A stretch of DNA of 64,000 nt. Origin: Acidimicrobiaceae bacterium. Lineage in GTDB: Bacteria > Actinomycetota > Acidimicrobiia > Acidimicrobiales > Aldehydirespiratoraceae. The translations under genes were made by a program, and so were the position numbers. The DNA is taken from contig JAPOYA010000024.1 of assembly GCA_026706815.1 (NCBI GenBank), forward strand, positions 1-64,000. The letters run 5' to 3'. This document shows, piece by piece, positions 3,504 through 20,518 of this stretch. Under the pieces are notes generated by a model. That model searched no databases. It was not told the origin of the DNA and worked only from the letters and a program-made list of their open reading frames with translations. Numbering within the stretch: position 1 is the stretch's first letter; every line of letters starts with the position of its first letter.

Positions 3504-3534
3504 CACCCCCGGCGCCATCACCGACAGCAACCCG

Positions 3535-4089
3535 TTAGCCTCGAGCGTCCTCCGCGTTGCTTGTGCGTGCCGCGGTCAACGCGACGATCATCACCAGACC
3601 GAGGATCGTGGCCGACAGCAGTGACTCTGAGGCTGTGATCGTGTTGTCCGAATACTGATCGACCGACCCCTCGGACCACTCAAGGGGATCCCTGTGTACC
3701 AGCATTGCGATCATGGCCGAGAAGATCCCGATGGTCACAACAATGCTGGCAGCCATCTCGCTCACCGACCCCGGCGTGGTCCGGCGCCAGCCGGCAACCA
3801 GCAGCACGATCGCCGGGACCCACAACGGGAGCGCCACAATCGAGATCATCGCCGCCGGAATGATCCCAGCTCCCGCGGCCATGACGAATCGTCCGCGGCC
3901 TGCTGAGTGGGCCAGCAGCGCCACTAGAGCGGCAACAAGGAACGGCGCAGCCAAAGAAACTGAGATGCGCAGACTGCCGGGCTCCCCCTCGGATCCGAAG
4001 AACCTGATTGAGGCGATCACCGCCGAATAGGCAATGGTCGCCCAGCAGGCCGCAACCACCCAGCGCTGCATTCGATCATCGTCTCCCAT
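3535..4089 (-). CDS. Hypothetical integral membrane protein
   Basis: About 184 residues with four to five likely membrane segments: WVVAACWATIAYSAVIASI, an Ala/Leu-rich stretch after SVSLAAPF, AAGAGIIPAAMISIVALPL, IVVTIGIFSAMIAML, and a C-terminal one after SATILGLVM. I recognise no family. I chose the ATG at 4089 over the upstream one at 4095 because the two differ by two codons and the later one leaves MGDDDRMQRW before the first membrane segment. The gene stands alone between the Calx-beta remnant and the flavin reductase. Confidence 0.6.
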   Translation of the reverse strand: MGDDDRMQRWVVAACWATIAYSAVIASIRFFGSEGEPGSLRISVSLAAPFLVAALVALLAHSAGRGRFVMAAGAGIIPAAMISIVALPLWVPAIVLLVAGWRRTTPGSVSEMAASIVVTIGIFSAMIAMLVHRDPLEWSEGSVDQYSDNTITASESLLSATILGLVMIVALTAARTSNAEDARG

Positions 4090-4692: not shown

Positions 4693-6699
4693 TCAATCGA
4701 GTTGCGGGCGACCAGTGCCGATGACGGTGGCGACGCCTTCCACGAACAGGGTCCGACCGTCCACATCGACGGACTTCTCGTCCCATTGGGTCTCCAGATC
4801 GAACTCGGGAGCTCCCGCGGCAACCATCGCCGCAGCCACCGCTGAGCCGGCCTGCTCGACAGCCGCTTCTTTGGCGGACTCGAGCTCGAAAAAGGTGTCC
4901 GGTTCCGCTCCGACATGAACCCTGAAAACCCCTCGCCGCGGCGACGAGACAACCACACGCCGCCTCAACCGGACTTTGCCCACGGCAGCACCGATCGCGT
5001 TGGCGACATCTGCGTGCTCGGGAATCTCGACCCTAGTGCCGAGCAGATCTCCGATCGCGGGATAATAGGCAGCCGCCGGGGCGCCGAGGCCCACCAACGG
5101 AACCGCCAGACCGGCCACCAGCTTCGAGGTGCGCGGACTGCCGTCGAGTGCTGCGGCCACCACCTCGGATGCAGCGGCCCGTTCAGGCAGGCCATCGCTC
5201 GCGAGGGCCGAGGCGAGCAGCTTCTCAGCCGACTGACGCACCAGAGCTGCTGTCACAGCCTCAGCGAACTCCTCTGGAGTGTCGGCGATGGTCTTGCCGC
5301 GATGATCGCAACGCCGCGCCCACACTTCAGCAGCAGCTTGGGCAACCGCAGCATCGTGGGTTGACTGCGTGCCCAGCACGTGGCTGGCGTCGGTGGGTGT
5401 GAATGCCGACACGCGCAACACCCCGCGAGCCGCCAGCCTTCTGGTGGCGAGCACGTCTCGGCTGCCTTCGACAACCGTGTCCGCGGCAACGATCTGGTCG
5501 CCGATCCTCTCCATCAGCAGACTCTCGACACGATCCAGCGTGGCCTGTGCGGCTTTCGCGGTCGGCTGCAGAAAAACGGTGCTCCACTCCTGGGGGCTGG
5601 TGTCGGCGGTAAGTTGACGCCTCAACTGCGCTTGCAGGAAGTCACCGTGACTCTGGGCTGTGACTACCAGCGGAACCACACGTCGCGGCCCAACAAGCAG
5701 GTCCGCCCCGAGCGCGCGGTCCGCTAGCAGCACCTCGCTGTCACCACCGAGACCGTGCGTCGCCATGGCCACCGCCTCAACCATGGTCTGATGCCCGCCC
5801 ACCTGCGCCCCTTTGTCGCCGAAGTCGAAAATCCCGTCGCGCAAAGCCGCGATGTCGGTGGTGGTGCCACCGATGTCGGAGATGACGGCATTGCTCGCGC
5901 CCACGAGGTGCGCCGCGCCGAGCAGGCTCGCAGCCGGGCCCGACAGGATCGTCTCCACCGGGCGTTCCCTGACGAAGTCTGCCGACACCAGAGAACCGTT
6001 GCCGCGCACCACCATGATCGGCGCGCCTATTCCCTGCCTGTCGAGCACTTCAGCGGTGGTCGACACGAGCTCATTGATCAGGCCGATCATGCGGGCGTTC
6101 AGCAGAGCCGTCACAGACCGTTTCGGGCCGTCGAGCGCATCGGCCAGCTCATGGCTGCAGGTGACGGGCAGACCGGTTCGCTCCCGAATCAACTTGCGGG
6201 CCGCAATCTCATGGTCGGCATTGCGCACGCTGAACTGCGAAGTGACCGCGAACCCATCGACCGACGGTGCGATCTCAATGACCGCAGCGACGAGCGATTC
6301 CTCGTCGAGCGGTTCGGCTTCGGCACCGTGCGGCGTGTGCCCGCCTGCGACCATCACCACCGAGTCGCGGCCGATCGCATTGCGCAGACCACCCCGGTCG
6401 AGCACGGCCTCCTCGAAACCGATCATCACCAACGCGGCCGGGCGTCCCCTGCCCTCGACGAGCGCGTTGGTTGCCAATGTGGTGGACAACGAGACGAAGC
6501 TGATCTCGCCCGGATCGACCGCAGCCGCGTCGAGCACCCGTTCGATCGCCTCGCCTACGCCCACGGAAAGGTCGTCATGAGTGGTCGGCGCCTTGGCCTT
6601 GGCGAGCAGAGCGCTCGAGCCCTCGTCGTAGACGACCGCGTCGGTGTAAGTACCGCCGGTGTCGACACCGAGGATCCACCGGTTCGCTGAAGCTGGCAT
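4693..6699 (-). CDS. Hydantoinase/oxoprolinase family protein (HyuA-like)
   Basis: The 668 residues carry the ASKHA-type nucleotide-binding fold of HyuA/5-oxoprolinase A subunits. ILGVDTGGTYTDAVV at residues 9-23 is the N-terminal phosphate loop, SLSTTLATNALVEG follows near 70-83, and ISDIGGTTTDIAALRDG near 270 is the second phosphate loop. Family members open cyclic amides with ATP (hydantoins, 5-oxoproline, N-methylhydantoin). No HyuB-type partner is nearby, so the substrate cannot be assigned and the enzyme may act alone or with a distant subunit. Neighbours are a flavin reductase and a nitroreductase on the same strand. Confidence 0.85.
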   Translation of the reverse strand: MPASANRWILGVDTGGTYTDAVVYDEGSSALLAKAKAPTTHDDLSVGVGEAIERVLDAAAVDPGEISFVSLSTTLATNALVEGRGRPAALVMIGFEEAVLDRGGLRNAIGRDSVVMVAGGHTPHGAEAEPLDEESLVAAVIEIAPSVDGFAVTSQFSVRNADHEIAARKLIRERTGLPVTCSHELADALDGPKRSVTALLNARMIGLINELVSTTAEVLDRQGIGAPIMVVRGNGSLVSADFVRERPVETILSGPAASLLGAAHLVGASNAVISDIGGTTTDIAALRDGIFDFGDKGAQVGGHQTMVEAVAMATHGLGGDSEVLLADRALGADLLVGPRRVVPLVVTAQSHGDFLQAQLRRQLTADTSPQEWSTVFLQPTAKAAQATLDRVESLLMERIGDQIVAADTVVEGSRDVLATRRLAARGVLRVSAFTPTDASHVLGTQSTHDAAVAQAAAEVWARRCDHRGKTIADTPEEFAEAVTAALVRQSAEKLLASALASDGLPERAAASEVVAAALDGSPRTSKLVAGLAVPLVGLGAPAAAYYPAIGDLLGTRVEIPEHADVANAIGAAVGKVRLRRRVVVSSPRRGVFRVHVGAEPDTFFELESAKEAAVEQAGSAVAAAMVAAGAPEFDLETQWDEKSVDVDGRTLFVEGVATVIGTGRPQLD

Positions 6700-9581: not shown

Positions 9582-9866
9582 TCAGTGCATGAGTTCGATC
9601 TCGCAGTGAACACCGGGAGCGCCGGCTAGACGCCGGTCCGACGTCAACAAAGTGGCACCCGTCACCTCTGCCAGAGCCACGTAACAGGCGTCATAAGCGG
9701 TGAGGTAGTCGCGAAGTTCCCAACAGCGTTCCAGCAGAGGCTCATGGGGAATGCGCCTGATCGGCAGATGGGCGAGACTCCCCAGCGAGCCGCGGGCGAC
9801 CGGTTCGGGGATCTCATTTCGGCGCAGGAGCCCTCTCAGAGCAGAAACCACTTCCAGCGGAATCAG
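9582..9866 (-). pseudogene. PIN-domain (VapC-like) toxin, N-terminus missing
   Basis: Roughly 93 codons encode the C-terminal two thirds of a VapC-type PIN ribonuclease: LEVVSALRGLLRRNEI helix, LTAYDACYVALAE with a catalytic aspartate, and ATLLTSDRRLA with another. The first ~45 residues, which should hold the initial catalytic aspartate, are missing. The frame runs open into the 3' end of the zeta-type toxin gene, which ends at 9863, so a junction lies near 9865. A truncated product could start at an internal GTG, but an active nuclease is unlikely. Confidence 0.65.
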
Positions 9867-10453
9867 ATGTCGGCCCTAGGCTTGGCACGTGTCAACTCGG
9901 CCGGCGTCCAGAGCGGCCATTCCGGGTCGTTGATGAGCACTCCGTTGCGGAAAGTAGCCAGAAGTCTGAAGGGCACTCGCGCAGAGGTGTTGTTGTAAAT
10001 GTGGGCTTCTGAGGACAGGTCGATGGCTTCACCGATGTGGGACCAGAGCCGTCGATGTCTAGAACGGACCTTCTCCTCTGGAACGTCATGGCCCCCGTTC
10101 TCGACGCGATTCTCAACTCGGGCCACAGCCAAGTCCTCTGGAATGAGGATGACGTGAATCGCCACCAGGTAACCGTCGGCCACTGCGCTGCGAATGAGCT
10201 CAACCTTTGACTCATGCGAGAAAACCGTCTCGGTTGCAAAGGACACTCGGTTCACAAGCAGTTCTGTTCGCCGATGGGCGGCAAGCCGCGCAGCGGTGTA
10301 GGCATGGTTGAGGGAATCGCCTGGCCACCGTTGCGCCGCTATGACATCCGCATTGACGAACTCCAGCGGGACAGGAGCGAGAATCCTCTCGTAGAAGGTC
10401 GTCTTGCCGGCGCCGTTCGGCCCGGCAACAACGTGGAGTACTGGATCTGACAC
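9863..10453 (-). CDS. Zeta-type toxin (P-loop kinase)
   Basis: The 196-residue protein starts with a kinase P-loop, AGPNGAGKTTF at ~11-21, followed by FVNADVIAA and ATETVFSHESK, as in zeta toxins and related small kinases. Zeta toxins phosphorylate UDP-N-acetylglucosamine or other nucleotide sugars and block wall synthesis; that activity is family knowledge and not shown here. The start is GTG at 10453, six bases after the stop of the antitoxin-like gene, the usual order for a toxin-antitoxin operon. Its 3' end abuts the truncated PIN gene. Confidence 0.75.
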   Translation of the reverse strand: MSDPVLHVVAGPNGAGKTTFYERILAPVPLEFVNADVIAAQRWPGDSLNHAYTAARLAAHRRTELLVNRVSFATETVFSHESKVELIRSAVADGYLVAIHVILIPEDLAVARVENRVENGGHDVPEEKVRSRHRRLWSHIGEAIDLSSEAHIYNNTSARVPFRLLATFRNGVLINDPEWPLWTPAELTRAKPRADI

Positions 10454-10459
10454 TGAAGG

Positions 10460-10834
10460 TCAAACAGCAGTTGATTGATCGTCGGTTCGCGCGTGCTCAA
10501 CGATGTTGCCGTCTTCATCGAGTTCGACGAACGACCGCCCCGCTGCGATGAACTCGGCGGCGAGGTCAAGCGCTTCACGCCGTTGTTTCATGTGTTCAAC
10601 CCATTCGGCTCGAACCACCGCTTGTTCTTTGGCGTTGAGTCCATCGTAAGATGCCTCGCCCTCCAGGACTTGTGCGATCGCTTGCTGGGACACACTTTGA
10701 GAAGTCTCCAGTTCCCGCCCGATGCGCGCCCAATGAGCGACCTGCTGCGCGGTGCTGCGGCTCATCACCGATGCCATGAGCTTCGCTGAGGCATGGACAT
10801 CGTCGTCGATTCGGATGGGTGAACTAGTAGCCAC
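10460..10834 (-). CDS. ParD-like antitoxin, partner of the zeta-type toxin
   Basis: About 124 residues. The N-terminal SSPIRIDDDVHASAKLMA strand-helix is the ribbon-helix-helix-like DNA-binding start of the ParD-like antitoxin family, followed by RSTAQQVAHWARIGRELE. The C-terminal acidic segment (FVELDEDGNIVEH) could wrap the toxin. I chose GTG at 10834, preceded by AGAGG, over the upstream start of the open frame. A perfect 8-1-8 palindrome lies 21 bp upstream of the start and probably serves as its operator. It is the first gene of a two-gene operon. Confidence 0.72.
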   Translation of the reverse strand: MATSSPIRIDDDVHASAKLMASVMSRSTAQQVAHWARIGRELETSQSVSQQAIAQVLEGEASYDGLNAKEQAVVRAEWVEHMKQRREALDLAAEFIAAGRSFVELDEDGNIVEHARTDDQSTAV

Positions 10835-10854
10835 AAAGCACCTCTCCACATGAC

Positions 10855-10871
10855 TGTAGCAAATTGCTACA
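10855..10871. promoter_or_regulatory. Palindromic operator candidate of the toxin-antitoxin operon
   Basis: TGTAGCAA-A-TTGCTACA is a perfect 8-bp inverted repeat with a one-base centre, 21 bp upstream of the antitoxin GTG. RHH-type antitoxins usually bind such repeats over their own promoter, so autoregulation is inferred. Confidence 0.6.
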
Positions 10872-10889
10872 CTAGACCGCAACGAGGTC

Positions 10890-11219
10890 CTAGATCAGCC
10901 ATTCGAGGGCGCGGAAAGAGCCCATGCCGGACGGGTCGTAGAGGGCTTCGGCTTCGCTGATTCGGCTGCGGGCCCGCAGGGCTGCCAGGTCGCCGACATG
11001 GGCTGACTCGTGCCACTGGCGCTTGCCCTCGGCCACCAGATCATCGATGCCGTGCGCTCGCAGGAAATCCGCTTGAGTACGGTTCGAGTCGGCTCTGCGA
11101 ACCAGCTCAAGCTGATCGATGGCAACGTCGACGGTGATGTCACAGGCTCCCGGCTCTCTGAGCCAGCGATTCGAATCGCCTGCATCATGTCCTGAGTGGG
11201 TGCGCAACCAGGAGCCCCG
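10890..11219 (-). repeat. 330-bp direct repeat, distal copy: detached 3' end of the MidA-family gene
   Basis: This segment aligns without gaps to 13285-13614, the 3' end of the MidA/NDUFAF7-family gene, at a constant offset of 2395 bases. I count 16 or 17 mismatches in 330 (about 95% identity), mostly in third codon positions. It begins exactly at the stop codon and encodes the same C-terminus, but lacks the first 245 or so residues, so it is a gene fragment. The restriction-modification genes lie between the two copies. Confidence 0.93.
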
Positions 11220-11268
11220 GAACCAGTTCAGTTCTGAATACGCGCTCTCAGTCGTTATTATCCCAACA

Positions 11269-12135
11269 GTGAGCAACGACAACGATTCGGATCTTGAACA
11301 GGAGAATGTTGGCGGCCTCTCCGGTCAGGTCCGTGATATCACCGTGAGCGGATTCCCCCAAGGTTACGACTACAAGGCGACCCGCTACGCAGATGTCATT
11401 CTGAAAGAAGCGTTCCCCAATCGCTTCGCTGATCTGCAGTCGGCGCTTGACGCATTCAGGCCTACGCTGGATGAACTCCGATCAGGAGGAGGTGGGAGGA
11501 CCGTTTTCGTCAGGCGGTTCGACGAGTCTCTGGCGAACCGACTAGAAGACGAACAAATCATCTGGGGCAAACAAAACATCACCATTGAGAAAGGTATTGG
11601 ATTTGACGGGACGGTGATGCCTGTTTCAAGAGTCCGCGGCCATGAGATAGACATGTTTGGCCTGGGTTCGGTAGCGCAACCCCTTCCTGGAGTCGCAGTC
11701 GAGATGGAGTGGAACAACAAAGACCCGTTCTTTGACCGCGACCTAATTAACTTCCAGGCGCTTCACCATGAAGGGGCGATCGCGGTGGGAGTCATAATCA
11801 CGCGGGGAGCTGACCTCCAGAATCTCATATCTACAGTGATCCAGAGCAAGGATGGAGGTTTCAAGTACGGGGCCTCGAGTACGCATTGGGACAAGCTGGT
11901 ACCCAGAATCAATCTGGGCGGTGGGGGTGAATGCCCTCTACTTCTCATTGGGATCCGCCCCGACAGAATCGACGGTATCGATCTTGCACACGTTGTCCGT
12001 GAGAAACTAGATGACGCAGACCTGCTCAGGGAGACTTGGCGGGACACTTACAAGAGCTGGAACGAAGCTAAACCGGTTTTTGACAAACTCCGAAACGATG
12101 CCCTCGAACTCCTTCCTCCTGTGTCGAACATATAG
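11269..12135 (+). CDS. BglII-type type II restriction endonuclease
   Basis: The 288-residue protein fits the BglII/BstYI endonuclease family. The core IDMFGLGSVAQPLPGVAVEM followed by EWNNKDPFFDRDLINF carries the PD-(D/E)xK-like set: an Asp in the EIDMF strand, then ExE before the helix, with ALHHEGAIAVGVIITRG after it. It would cut DNA left unmethylated by its partner; the target sequence cannot be read from the protein. GTG at 11269 gives MSNDNDSD and starts 50 bp after the distal repeat. The gene is visibly more AT-rich (about half GC) than its neighbours. It converges on the methyltransferase with a 19-bp gap. Confidence 0.8.
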   Translation: MSNDNDSDLEQENVGGLSGQVRDITVSGFPQGYDYKATRYADVILKEAFPNRFADLQSALDAFRPTLDELRSGGGGRTVFVRRFDESLANRLEDEQIIWGKQNITIEKGIGFDGTVMPVSRVRGHEIDMFGLGSVAQPLPGVAVEMEWNNKDPFFDRDLINFQALHHEGAIAVGVIITRGADLQNLISTVIQSKDGGFKYGASSTHWDKLVPRINLGGGGECPLLLIGIRPDRIDGIDLAHVVREKLDDADLLRETWRDTYKSWNEAKPVFDKLRNDALELLPPVSNI

Positions 12136-12154
12136 TCCGCGGAGTCATTGAGGT

Positions 12155-13006
12155 TCAACCGTAGGCTGCATACGGTTGGCCTCGCGGTGTCACCTGATCA
12201 TCTGCTTCGTTACCCCAAGAGACCCAACCGGGCCTCGAATAACGAGCGAACAATTCAAGATACGGCCCGGGCGAACAATCTTCAATGACATCGTACTGTT
12301 CGTCAGGTTTGCGTGAATGCTCGCGCTTTCTCGTTTCGATCATGTTGACCTGCCGCCGGCCGGGCGCAAGCGTTCGCATGCTGCCTCTCACACCAAACAA
12401 GATCAATTCGGTCACGTTCCGAAAGTAGAATCCCACACCTCTCCCGTCAGGTCCGCCGTCTTTGCGGCGCTTGGCCCACACGATATTGGACTTGTAGGTA
12501 AATCCCCAAGACTCCATGACCTGCAGCCCGTCGGCGATGAGTGCGTTCGGTACCCACAGATAAAGATGCGCGTTGTCGGTCAGCACCTCCGGGATAGGGA
12601 GTACCCGAATCTCGGCCGTTGTCATTGTGTCGTACCGCGACAATCGACGATGCTCTGGAGCCACCTTGCCCGTACGATTCATGAACTGCCAAGGTGGATC
12701 GGCCAAGATCGTCGAGAATGGTCCACCTTCCACAGTCCGGAGATCTTCGGAAGCGGATTGAACTCCTGCCCCGCGATGTGCTGACACCGCCAGTTCTTCT
12801 CTGGACTTGGGCACGACTCGGATTTCGTGCCCAAGAACTTCGGCCAACGAAGCGAGCGTCGAAATCTGCGGATTGCGGTCACTTCCTGAGAACAACCTCC
12901 TAAGCGACGCCGGTTGGGTATCAGCCAACCGGGCTAGGTCCGCCTTGGATAGTCCCGCCTTCCGGCGAGCATTGTCTAGTTCCTTCAATAGCGTGTTCGT
13001 TTCCAT
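12155..13006 (-). CDS. XRE-fused MT-A70 family adenine-N6 DNA methyltransferase
   Basis: Residues 1-66 form an XRE/Cro-type helix-turn-helix (KAGLSKADLARLADTQPASL). From ~95 on there is an MT-A70 methyltransferase with the catalytic DPPW at ~103-106, the strand AHLYLWVPNALIADG near 150 and a late PGPYLELFAR SAM-binding segment. It should protect host sites from the convergent endonuclease. The ATG at 13006 is 10 bp from a perfect 18-bp palindrome, so the fused HTH may repress its own promoter. The ~250 bp upstream to the MidA gene (13035-13284) holds no other gene I can support. Confidence 0.85.
   Translation of the reverse strand: METNTLLKELDNARRKAGLSKADLARLADTQPASLRRLFSGSDRNPQISTLASLAEVLGHEIRVVPKSREELAVSAHRGAGVQSASEDLRTVEGGPFSTILADPPWQFMNRTGKVAPEHRRLSRYDTMTTAEIRVLPIPEVLTDNAHLYLWVPNALIADGLQVMESWGFTYKSNIVWAKRRKDGGPDGRGVGFYFRNVTELILFGVRGSMRTLAPGRRQVNMIETRKREHSRKPDEQYDVIEDCSPGPYLELFARYSRPGWVSWGNEADDQVTPRGQPYAAYG
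12156..12178. terminator. Hairpin between convergent restriction and modification genes
   Basis: CAACCGTA and TACGGTTG form an 8-bp perfect stem with a 7-base loop just inside the methyltransferase 3' end, 20 bp past the endonuclease stop. No U-tract follows, so terminator function is uncertain. Confidence 0.4.
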
Positions 13007-13016
13007 CTGAATCCAA

Positions 13017-13034
13017 CGTAACACATGTGTTACG
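13017..13034. promoter_or_regulatory. Perfect 18-bp palindrome upstream of the methyltransferase (operator candidate)
   Basis: CGTAACACATGTGTTACG is its own reverse complement and sits 10 bp upstream of the methyltransferase ATG. The neighbouring gene encodes an XRE-type HTH fused to a methyltransferase, so this is the natural binding site for autoregulation. No second full copy is visible near the endonuclease start. Confidence 0.7.
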
Positions 13035-13284
13035 CCTCCCTTGGTATTAGTGGGACGCATTCCCGCGCCGAGCTGAACCGGCAACATATCTAGACCCTGT
13101 GACAGCACAGCCCAAACGCCCGGGAGGGCAATCGAACCGGGTCACAACAAAGGCAAGATGACTTCCAAGCCGCGTCAACTCCCCCAACTGAGGGTCCGTC
13201 CGATGCGCACACGCGTTCTACTCGATTACTGATCGGATGAGCGCTTGGAAGCCATTCCCGATCTGGCTTCGCCGTAACGGCGTG

Positions 13285-13614
13285 CTAGAGCAGCCATTCG
13301 AGGGCGCGGAAAGAGCCCATGCCGGACGGGTCGCAGAGGGCTTCGGCTTCACTGATGCGGCTGCGGGCCCGCAGGGCTGGCAGGTCGCCGACATGGGCCG
13401 ACTCGTGCCACTGGCGCTTTCCCTCGGCCACCAGATCATCGATGCCGTGCGCTCGCAGGAAATCCGCTTGAGTGCGGTTCGAGTCGGCTCTGCGAACCAA
13501 CTCAAGCTGATCGATGGCAACGTCGACGGTGATGTCACAGGCTCCCGGCTCTTTGAGCCAGCGATTCGAGTCCCCTGCATCATGTCCTGAGTGGCTGCGC
13601 ACCCAAGAACCCCG
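13285..13614 (-). repeat. 330-bp direct repeat, proximal copy within the intact MidA-family gene
   Basis: This is the in-frame 3' end of the MidA-family gene and the partner of 10890-11219. Homology stops sharply on both sides: at the stop codon (13285) and at 13614, where the gene body continues and the other copy runs into unrelated sequence before the endonuclease. Confidence 0.93.
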
Positions 13615-14355
13615 CGCTGCGAGTTCCGCTGTGATGCCGCCATAGTCGAGCACCACCACACGGCCTGCGTGCAACGAACCGAGCGCTTCGGCGAGCCAAT
13701 CCCGCGCTGCCCTCTGCCAAACAACCTGCAACCCTTCAGAACCGCGCGCACCCACCAGCGTGTTGAGTTCTTCGACGATCACAGACGACTCCGGAGCCGG
13801 AACCGCAACCGTGGCGAACTGGCCCCAATCTGGGCCTTCGCGGATCCGCAACTCAAACCAGTCCCCACCACGGCGCTCGTAGAGGTCGAAGCCCAAGTTG
13901 TCCAAGAGCTCGTTCGCCAGCACGACCCCGACCGCAGCCGGCTCGCTGGGGCCCTTCTCGGCCGAGACCACCGACGGATGCTCGGGGTGCTGAGCCCGCT
14001 GCACAGCCGACCGCTCTATTGCATGCCATATGAGCGCGCCGGAGCGAAGCGCCTCGGGTTCAGCGGCGACAACTGAGCGCGCCAGCGTGCCCGGGCCGGC
14101 ACCCCACTCATAGACAGGAAACTGCCCTGGGGATCCAAGCTCTCGCCACCAAGTGTCGATCGCCCGGGCCACCACAGCACCGAATAACGGACCTACTTCG
14201 GGAGCAGTCAGGAAATCTCCCTGTCGCCCAGCTTGGCCTCTTGCCTGATAGAACCCCTCGCTTTCGTCGTAGAGCGCGGCGTCCACATATTCCGAAACCG
14301 GGATCGACCCCTTTTCAGCAATCCTTCTGCGGAGTCGAAGAGCGAGCGTCGCCAC
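13285..14355 (-). CDS. SAM-dependent methyltransferase, MidA/NDUFAF7 family
   Basis: The 356-residue protein has the family's N-terminal helix (RLRRRIAEKGSIPVSEYVDAAL), the SAM loop YEWGAGPGTLARSVV near 100, and a middle ANELLDNLGFDLYER motif. In mitochondria the homologue NDUFAF7 methylates an arginine of NDUFS2, the NuoD counterpart, and is needed for complex I assembly. Here it begins 20 bp after nuoN as the last gene of the 11-subunit nuo operon, which supports a similar role by context. Its last 110 codons are duplicated beyond the restriction-modification genes, so the 3' end may be partly of foreign origin. Confidence 0.85.
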   Translation of the reverse strand: MATLALRLRRRIAEKGSIPVSEYVDAALYDESEGFYQARGQAGRQGDFLTAPEVGPLFGAVVARAIDTWWRELGSPGQFPVYEWGAGPGTLARSVVAAEPEALRSGALIWHAIERSAVQRAQHPEHPSVVSAEKGPSEPAAVGVVLANELLDNLGFDLYERRGGDWFELRIREGPDWGQFATVAVPAPESSVIVEELNTLVGARGSEGLQVVWQRAARDWLAEALGSLHAGRVVVLDYGGITAELAARGSWVRSHSGHDAGDSNRWLKEPGACDITVDVAIDQLELVRRADSNRTQADFLRAHGIDDLVAEGKRQWHESAHVGDLPALRARSRISEAEALCDPSGMGSFRALEWLL

Positions 14356-19987: not shown

Positions 19988-20518
19988 TCAGTCCTTCCGC
20001 GCCACGACGATGGCGCCGATCAACGCTGCCAGCAACAACACCGAGACCGCTTCGAACGCCACGATGTACTGCGAGAAGATCGCGTCCGACACGGCGTTCA
20101 CCGATTGGGGGTTTTCGATGACCAGACGACCGTCTTCAAAGCTGTCGATCAGAGCGATCGCCATCACCGCGAACAGCAGCACCCCCACCACCGCGGCCAT
20201 GCCCCGCTTCTCGTCGCCCACCGACTCATCGTCGCCCAGCGATGCACGCGTCAACATCACCCCGAACAGGAACAGCACCACCACCGCGCCGATGTAGACC
20301 AGCACCTGAGTAACGGCAACGAACTCCGAGCCGAGCAGGATGAACTGAGCGGCCACCCCGGCCAGGACCACCACCAGCCACAGAGCCGCATGCACAACGT
20401 TGCCGGTGGTCACGACACGCACCGCCGAGAAGATCATCGCCGCGGCGATGACCGCGAAGAAGACGTTCTGCGCCACATACAGGTCGGCGTCGGCGGAAAG
20501 CGCGGCAAGCAGGCTCAT
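19988..20518 (-). CDS. nuoJ: NADH-quinone oxidoreductase subunit J, 11-subunit cluster
   Basis: The 176 residues form about five membrane helices with the conserved [18 protein letters not shown] helix (third helix with a pi-bulge in known structures). Its start overlaps the nuoI stop by four bases (ATGA), indicating translational coupling. The C-terminus is short and ends VARKD, unlike the extended tail of the second NuoJ. Confidence 0.94.

Follow-up and report, generated by a model that had tools for sequence, protein, structure and literature searches.

It is a standing question how restriction-modification (RM) genes can enter a new host without killing it. C proteins are among the known answers, as are modification enzymes that bear a helix-turn-helix (HTH) domain. 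Of the second route, a review states that the modification enzymes of several RM systems use an N-terminal HTH to repress their own genes at an operator overlapping the promoter; it also describes promoter competition for Ecl18kI (available part of PMC3874152). The Nph3I pair methylates RGATCY to RG(6mA)TCY and cuts RGATCY, as was demonstrated biochemically (available part of PMC10734518). Among toxin-antitoxin (TA) modules, the accessible text on the antitoxin HigA3 reports that only DNA2, the -10 box, was shifted and that the whole palindrome was not (PMC7340258). In this study, an RM unit that combines features of these systems was analyzed.

The unit consists of two convergent genes, a restriction endonuclease (REase) gene on the plus strand and a methyltransferase (MTase) gene on the minus strand, and lies in a 64-kb window (the whole stretch of DNA that was analyzed) of a 3.04-Mb genome in 65 contigs. 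The MTase gene (12155-13006, minus strand; ATG at 13006-13004) encodes a 283-aa HTH-MT-A70 fusion that is predicted to be an adenine MTase producing RG(m6A)TCY and an autorepressor. Pfam placed HTH_3 at residues 13-59 (E 3.4e-8) and MT-A70 at residues 97-267 (E 5.2e-31); this confirms the preliminary description, which had reported an XRE-type HTH fused to an MT-A70 MTase and had given its coordinates correctly. The DPPW-type motif DPPWQF is present. The XRE/HigA-like HTH occupies residues 1-66 (12809-13006, minus strand), with the recognition-helix stretch PASLRRLFS; the predicted structure of the fusion was mediocre (pLDDT 69.0) and served for the fold alone. The REase gene (11269-12135, plus strand, GTG start) is of the BglII/BstYI type (PF09195 Endonuc-BglII, E 2.1e-25) and retains the invariant block ExEWNNKDPFFDRDL. 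The nearest named relative of the locus is found in an Acidimicrobiaceae MAG (L056), in which the MTase is 98% identical. No separate small C gene was found between or immediately flanking the two genes, in agreement with the earlier view of a unit that lacks a C protein.

Over residues 70-270, the MTase is 64.4% identical to NrS3_07 (M.Nph3I) of phage NrS-3, and the REase is 35.6% identical to NrS3_08 (R.Nph3I). Because of this kinship with a characterized pair, RG(m6A)TCY is predicted for the MTase of the window, which most likely methylates the adenine of RGATCY and would thereby protect against the adjoining REase. Avoidance of RGATCY was dropped as evidence of specificity, for the window shows no clear avoidance (AGATCT, 11 vs. 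16.5 expected; GGATCC, 26 vs. 24.0 expected). The pairing of a BglII-type REase with an MT-A70 MTase had at first been regarded as uncommon. That claim was rejected: an REase match was present in 43 of the 58 loci with HTH-less MTase relatives (L057-L114), 7 of 9 plasmid records with an REase match were also among the MTase matches listed, and the Nph3I pair is known. The pairing of MT-A70 and BglII-type enzymes is widespread.

The 10 nt that precede the MTase ATG are bordered by CGTAACACATGTGTTACG, a perfect 18-bp palindrome (13017-13034), as the preliminary description had stated. Its length and perfection prove little, because perfect palindromes of 18 bp or more are found twice in the window (13017-13034 and 20434-20451), and 30 mononucleotide shuffles of the window, with a mean of 0.33, reach a maximum of 2; significance by length alone was therefore rejected. 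The other palindrome (TCATCGCCGCGGCGATGA) sits within a coding region and is likely due to chance. Conservation is more informative. The set of fusion loci comprised the window, 13 full-length fusions from the genome scan (L044-L056), and one from the viral-contig scan (L023), 15 in all; two MTase fragments that lack the N-terminus (L109 and L110) were excluded from the count. The putative operator consists of the arms CGTAAC and GTTACG around a spacer, ACATGT in the window, and the conserved part is CGTAAC-N6-GTTACG. When the same palindrome was sought upstream of the fusion homologs, the arms were found before the MTase start in all 15 loci, exactly in 13 and with one mismatch in L054 and L023, and again in a 16th locus, L169 (11 of 12 arm bases), which alone was counted as an extra locus from the order-level sample because its site differs from all others; comparing neighborhoods to match the fusion loci of that sample to the earlier ones was unreliable on account of strand. 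Mean pairwise identity among the fusion loci was 0.98 in the arms, 0.53 in the spacer, 0.39 in the 50 bp upstream, and 0.36 in the 30 bp downstream. The central 6 bp are variable, and of the 15 loci only that of the window's genome has the perfect 18-mer. Since only the arms are conserved, the perfect 18-mer is an accident of the window's spacer: the palindrome is real and positioned as described, while its perfection is unique to the window and the conserved signal is the arms. In the whole genome, CGTAACN6GTTACG has a single exact site, at its own locus, with no others at one mismatch and 24 at two mismatches. The presence of the site in every full-length fusion homolog found supports, at the level of sequence, the earlier proposal that the fused HTH represses its own gene through the palindrome.

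The operator also appears to overlap a promoter. Extended -10 elements have the consensus TGN plus TANNNT, and TGNTACNNT lies across the right arm, read towards the MTase, in 15 of 15 fusion loci. In the window, the putative extended -10 element TGT-TACGTT (13015-13023, minus strand) overlaps the right arm and ends 8 nt before the ATG, so that the transcript is predicted to be near-leaderless. Site positions 11 and 19 always carry T (2.0-bit columns) while the mirror positions vary, which indicates that the right arm is under a second constraint besides symmetry; the asymmetric T columns fit a promoter element laid upon a symmetric operator. The distance from the site to the start codon is 7-14 nt in 13 of the 15 fusion loci, 19 nt in L052, and 27 nt in L055. 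A consensus scan of 11150-13250 revealed no two-hexamer promoter. An AATAC box (13044-13048, minus strand), located 10-14 bp upstream of the operator, is conserved within the fusion clade alone; its last four bases carry 1.43-1.65 bits per column and its first base 0.76, and it was not seen in the stand-alone HTH relatives described below.

The start of the REase gene is arranged differently. A putative -10 element of the leaderless type, TATTAT (11256-11261, plus strand), lies 7 nt before the GTG, and in 9 of 14 fusion loci a TANNNT was read by eye 7-8 nt upstream of the REase GTG. No operator was found at the REase start of the fusion loci, and the palindrome was thus rejected as an REase operator. 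Because the REase promoter has no operator, the control seen here concerns the MTase gene; with neither a C gene nor an operator at the nuclease promoter, the timing of the REase could only be indirect. The "self-timed restriction unit" proposed in the preliminary description is therefore retained as regards the operator at the MTase gene and is not borne out as regards a delay of the REase, whose promoter is operator-free. The REase and MTase genes converge in the window and likewise in each of the 13 genome fusion loci; the viral contig L023 (4.9 kb) has no REase match. A gap of 19 bp separates the convergent stop codons (12136-12154), and no terminator was seen in it; in 12 of the 13 other loci the gap is 11-28 bp, and in L047 the genes overlap. 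A bidirectional terminator between the two genes was considered and rejected, none being found at the junction. In L047, the REase match (4879-5491) skips residues 119-202, so this REase may be broken; the MTase and the operator are intact there.

The unit is flanked by direct repeats of 343 bp (94.2% identity). The left copy (10877-11219) duplicates the 3' end of a Methyltransf_28 gene, and the right copy (13272-13614) overlaps the 3' part of the Methyltransf_28 gene at 13285-14355. In L056, the flanking repeat is 475 bp long (98.1%; 3511-3985 and 5778-6252) and ends inside the operator, and in L054 two tRNA-Met genes enclose the unit, with a 93-bp repeat (98.9%; 3562-3654 and 5790-5882). The remaining 11 of the 14 loci searched showed no flanking repeat, the flanks being short in several of them. 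The copies are more alike within one genome than between the two related genomes. Such repeats recall an insertion with target duplication, and "insertion with long target duplication" appears in the title of a paper cited in PMC3874152 and PMC2630997. To the left of the repeat are TA-like genes, namely, a ParD_like gene (10460-10882), an AAA_33/Zeta_toxin-like gene (9863-10453), and a PIN-domain piece (9582-9851).

The MTase query also matched stand-alone HTH proteins, three of which in the phylum sample (L019, L021, and L022) carry all 12 arm bases upstream. A signature comparison was performed with a stand-alone HTH as the query, together with three plasmid loci. It excluded L135/L018, where the contig stops immediately short of the gene; L139, L146, and L154, in which the match lacks a full HTH; and L144 and L145, which are the fusions of the window's genome and of genome G263. 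Upstream of stand-alone HTHs whose recognition helix is of the VRRLF/RRLL type, 8-12 of the 12 arm bases were present, vs. 6-8 upstream of those without this signature. At least nine arm bases were present for 10 of 11 HTHs with the signature vs. 0 of 13 without it, a comparison that is suggestive only because the class was drawn after the sites had been seen. The operator of L136 scored 8, no higher than its shuffles.

An order-level test was free of such post-hoc classing: the first 70 MTase residues were searched against 198 genomes of the order, and all 21 hits were scored. All six fusions scored 11-12 of the 12 arm bases, and 12 of the 15 stand-alones scored at least 9 of 12, with sites located 119-144 nt before the HTH. 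Most of these stand-alone sites share the T two bases past the site, and in the stand-alone relatives the start codon is often 8-15 nt past it. Two of the 12 positives (L174 and L180, score 9) were not above their own shuffles at the 5% level. No site was found in three stand-alones of this sample (L181, L182, and L183), although L183 has RRLF. Genome G479 contains both a fusion MTase (L169) and a stand-alone HTH (L184) with operators that are alike, each with 11 of 12 arm bases. In the HTH tree, a 100/99 branch sets the fused and the operator-bearing HTHs apart from the rest, and the site-less L151 falls among them; the tree does not resolve the order within this clade and does not establish the fusions as one group, L023 standing apart.

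The motif by itself is less telling. In viral contigs, the bare motif with the -10 T occurs in at least 120 stretches, and none of 80 loci has an HTH or MTase relative; the HTH query had no match in phages, and scans for related viral loci with the REase and the stand-alone HTH contributed little. A pattern search of the phylum found 20 places in 18 of 396 genomes, and 4 of the 17 loci L115-L131, plus the window, adjoin the HTH family. In the order sample, the exact site adjoins a found HTH in 7 of the 15 genomes that have an exact site. Away from the HTH family, the bare motif is mostly due to chance.

The neighbors of the stand-alone HTHs point to TA modules. A conserved gene of 107-139 aa adjoins the stand-alone HTH in L019, L020, L021, and L022. 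Its product gave a weak Pfam match to Gp49 (E 0.012, below the cut-off, and in one of three proteins at that threshold), and Foldseek with its predicted structure (pLDDT 72.1) ranked HigB2 proteins at all of positions 1-7 (best E 0.0026, TM 0.39). With moderate confidence, the partner of the stand-alone HTH may be taken as a HigB-like toxin. The HTH itself weakly resembles the addiction-module antidote model dnstrm_HI1420. The HTH of the fusion belongs to the same clade, and has the same operator-promoter cassette, as a HigA-like antitoxin family. Since the neighbor of the fusion MTase is an REase, and no HigB/RelE-type toxin gene adjoins it, the fusion is not classed as a HigA even though it shares the HigA-like domain.

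These data bear on who reads the site. It could be the operator of another regulator, such as a host XRE protein or a phage repressor, instead of the fused HTH; XRE proteins are numerous in such genomes, stand-alone relatives have the same motif, and in G479 the operators of a fusion and of a stand-alone HTH are similar. We consider this very unlikely, because at E 1e-7 the fusion is the sole HTH of its clade found in the window's genome, the single exact site of that genome is the fusion's own, and site and fused HTH travel together through 15 loci, one of them on a viral contig (L023). It is also highly improbable that the HTH aids DNA binding or target recognition by the MTase and that the palindrome is a feature of the promoter with no connection to it. 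Methylation by M.Ecl18kI is indeed said to be altered as well by changes in its regulatory region (available part of PMC3695355), but close homologs of the MTase, including the active M.Nph3I, lack such an N-terminal domain, and the site accompanies the HTH, with none within two mismatches at the starts of non-fusion MTase genes.

Paired arm changes were observed in stand-alone relatives, namely, CGTAGC/GCTACG in L171 and CGTATC/GATACG in L140, and such symmetric changes are what a dimer-read operator predicts. The operators of L136, L140, and L171 have changed in both arms together and may allow the base code of the HTH clade to be derived. A role of the inverted repeat in RNA, as a 5' leader hairpin controlling translation or as a terminator, has the smallest probability of the alternatives: a hairpin with a 6-nt loop on a 6-bp stem can be drawn, and the paired changes would suit it, but a dimer-read operator predicts the identical changes, most of the repeat would not be transcribed because the -10-like element is inside it, the invariant T11 and T19 lie outside the stem, and no T run follows the repeat in the sequences shown.

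We regard it as probable that the protein is a bifunctional RGATCY MTase that shuts off its own gene via its HTH, by a switch common to HigA-like antitoxins. This reading draws on the domains, the conserved operator, the -10-like element that overlaps it, and the shared cassette. The C-terminal MT-A70 part would methylate the RGATCY adenine, by which the cell would be protected from the BglII-type REase. A dimer of the N-terminal HTH would bind the inverted repeat CGTAAC-N6-GTTACG and, because the right arm would be the extended -10 element of the MTase's own promoter, would exclude RNA polymerase from that promoter; once enough MTase had been made, its synthesis would be shut off. The HTH, together with its operator-promoter-start cassette, appears to share its origin with the corresponding parts of the HigA-like antitoxin family; the switch has therefore probably passed as one unit between a TA module and an RM module, in one direction or the other. 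An effect on the REase is possible as well, as convergent MTase transcription may run into the REase gene until repression begins.

A bolder extension, against which we lean slightly, is that an RM system gained or gave a whole TA cassette, that one operator code and cross-regulation follow, and that shut-down of the MTase promoter paces the REase. If this is true, the "antitoxin" of an RM system, the MTase, and the HigA-type antitoxins would obey one operator code, and genomes with both modules (for example, G479 with L169 and L184) should show cross-regulation. Because the RM genes converge about 20 bp apart, shut-down of the MTase promoter would itself pace the REase.

Among the open-licence papers listed in literature searches, no title or beginning of an abstract described an MT-A70/HTH fusion or this operator shared with antitoxins. 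An adenine MTase of the METTL3-like fold appears here to use a switch common to TA modules. Two kinds of "selfish" gene pair thus appear to share one switch, because the antitoxin-like HTH relatives keep the same site, and the two kinds of addiction module would be linked by their control parts, beyond mere analogy. As the operator is defined base by base across many loci, it offers a testable operator code for an actinobacterial antitoxin family.

In sum, the locus can be compared with four kinds of known system. Like M.EcoRII, M.SsoII/M.Ecl18kI, and ScrFI, the fusion has an N-terminal HTH and an operator at its own promoter (available parts of PMC3874152 and PMC3695355), and the overlap of operator and promoter recurs here, as judged from sequence and conservation. 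In these sources SsoII and Ecl18kI are cytosine-5 enzymes, whereas the fusion is of the MT-A70 (N6-adenine) kind, and one site serves both genes, whereas the present genes converge and no operator accompanies the REase promoter. The fusion further differs from the EcoRII/SsoII-kind autorepressors in that its HTH is HigA-like and its cassette is common to antitoxins. The Nph3I pair of phage NrS-3 likewise has an MT-A70 MTase adjoining a PF09195 REase, but M.Nph3I lacks the HTH, and the Nph3I genes are in tandem whereas the fusion unit is convergent. In the C-protein type II systems Esp1396I and Kpn2I, as far as the available texts describe them, a DNA-binding protein likewise sets the balance of two enzymes, but it is encoded by a separate C gene, whereas here the reader would be part of the MTase. 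HigA antitoxins act through an XRE-type HTH on a site at their own promoter, as is predicted here, although in the present case the HTH is fused to an MTase and the partner is a nuclease. The promoter palindrome of M. tuberculosis HigA3, given as TATAAC-N6-GTTATA in the accessible text of PMC7340258, has the same inner half-site and the same spacing as the operator described here.
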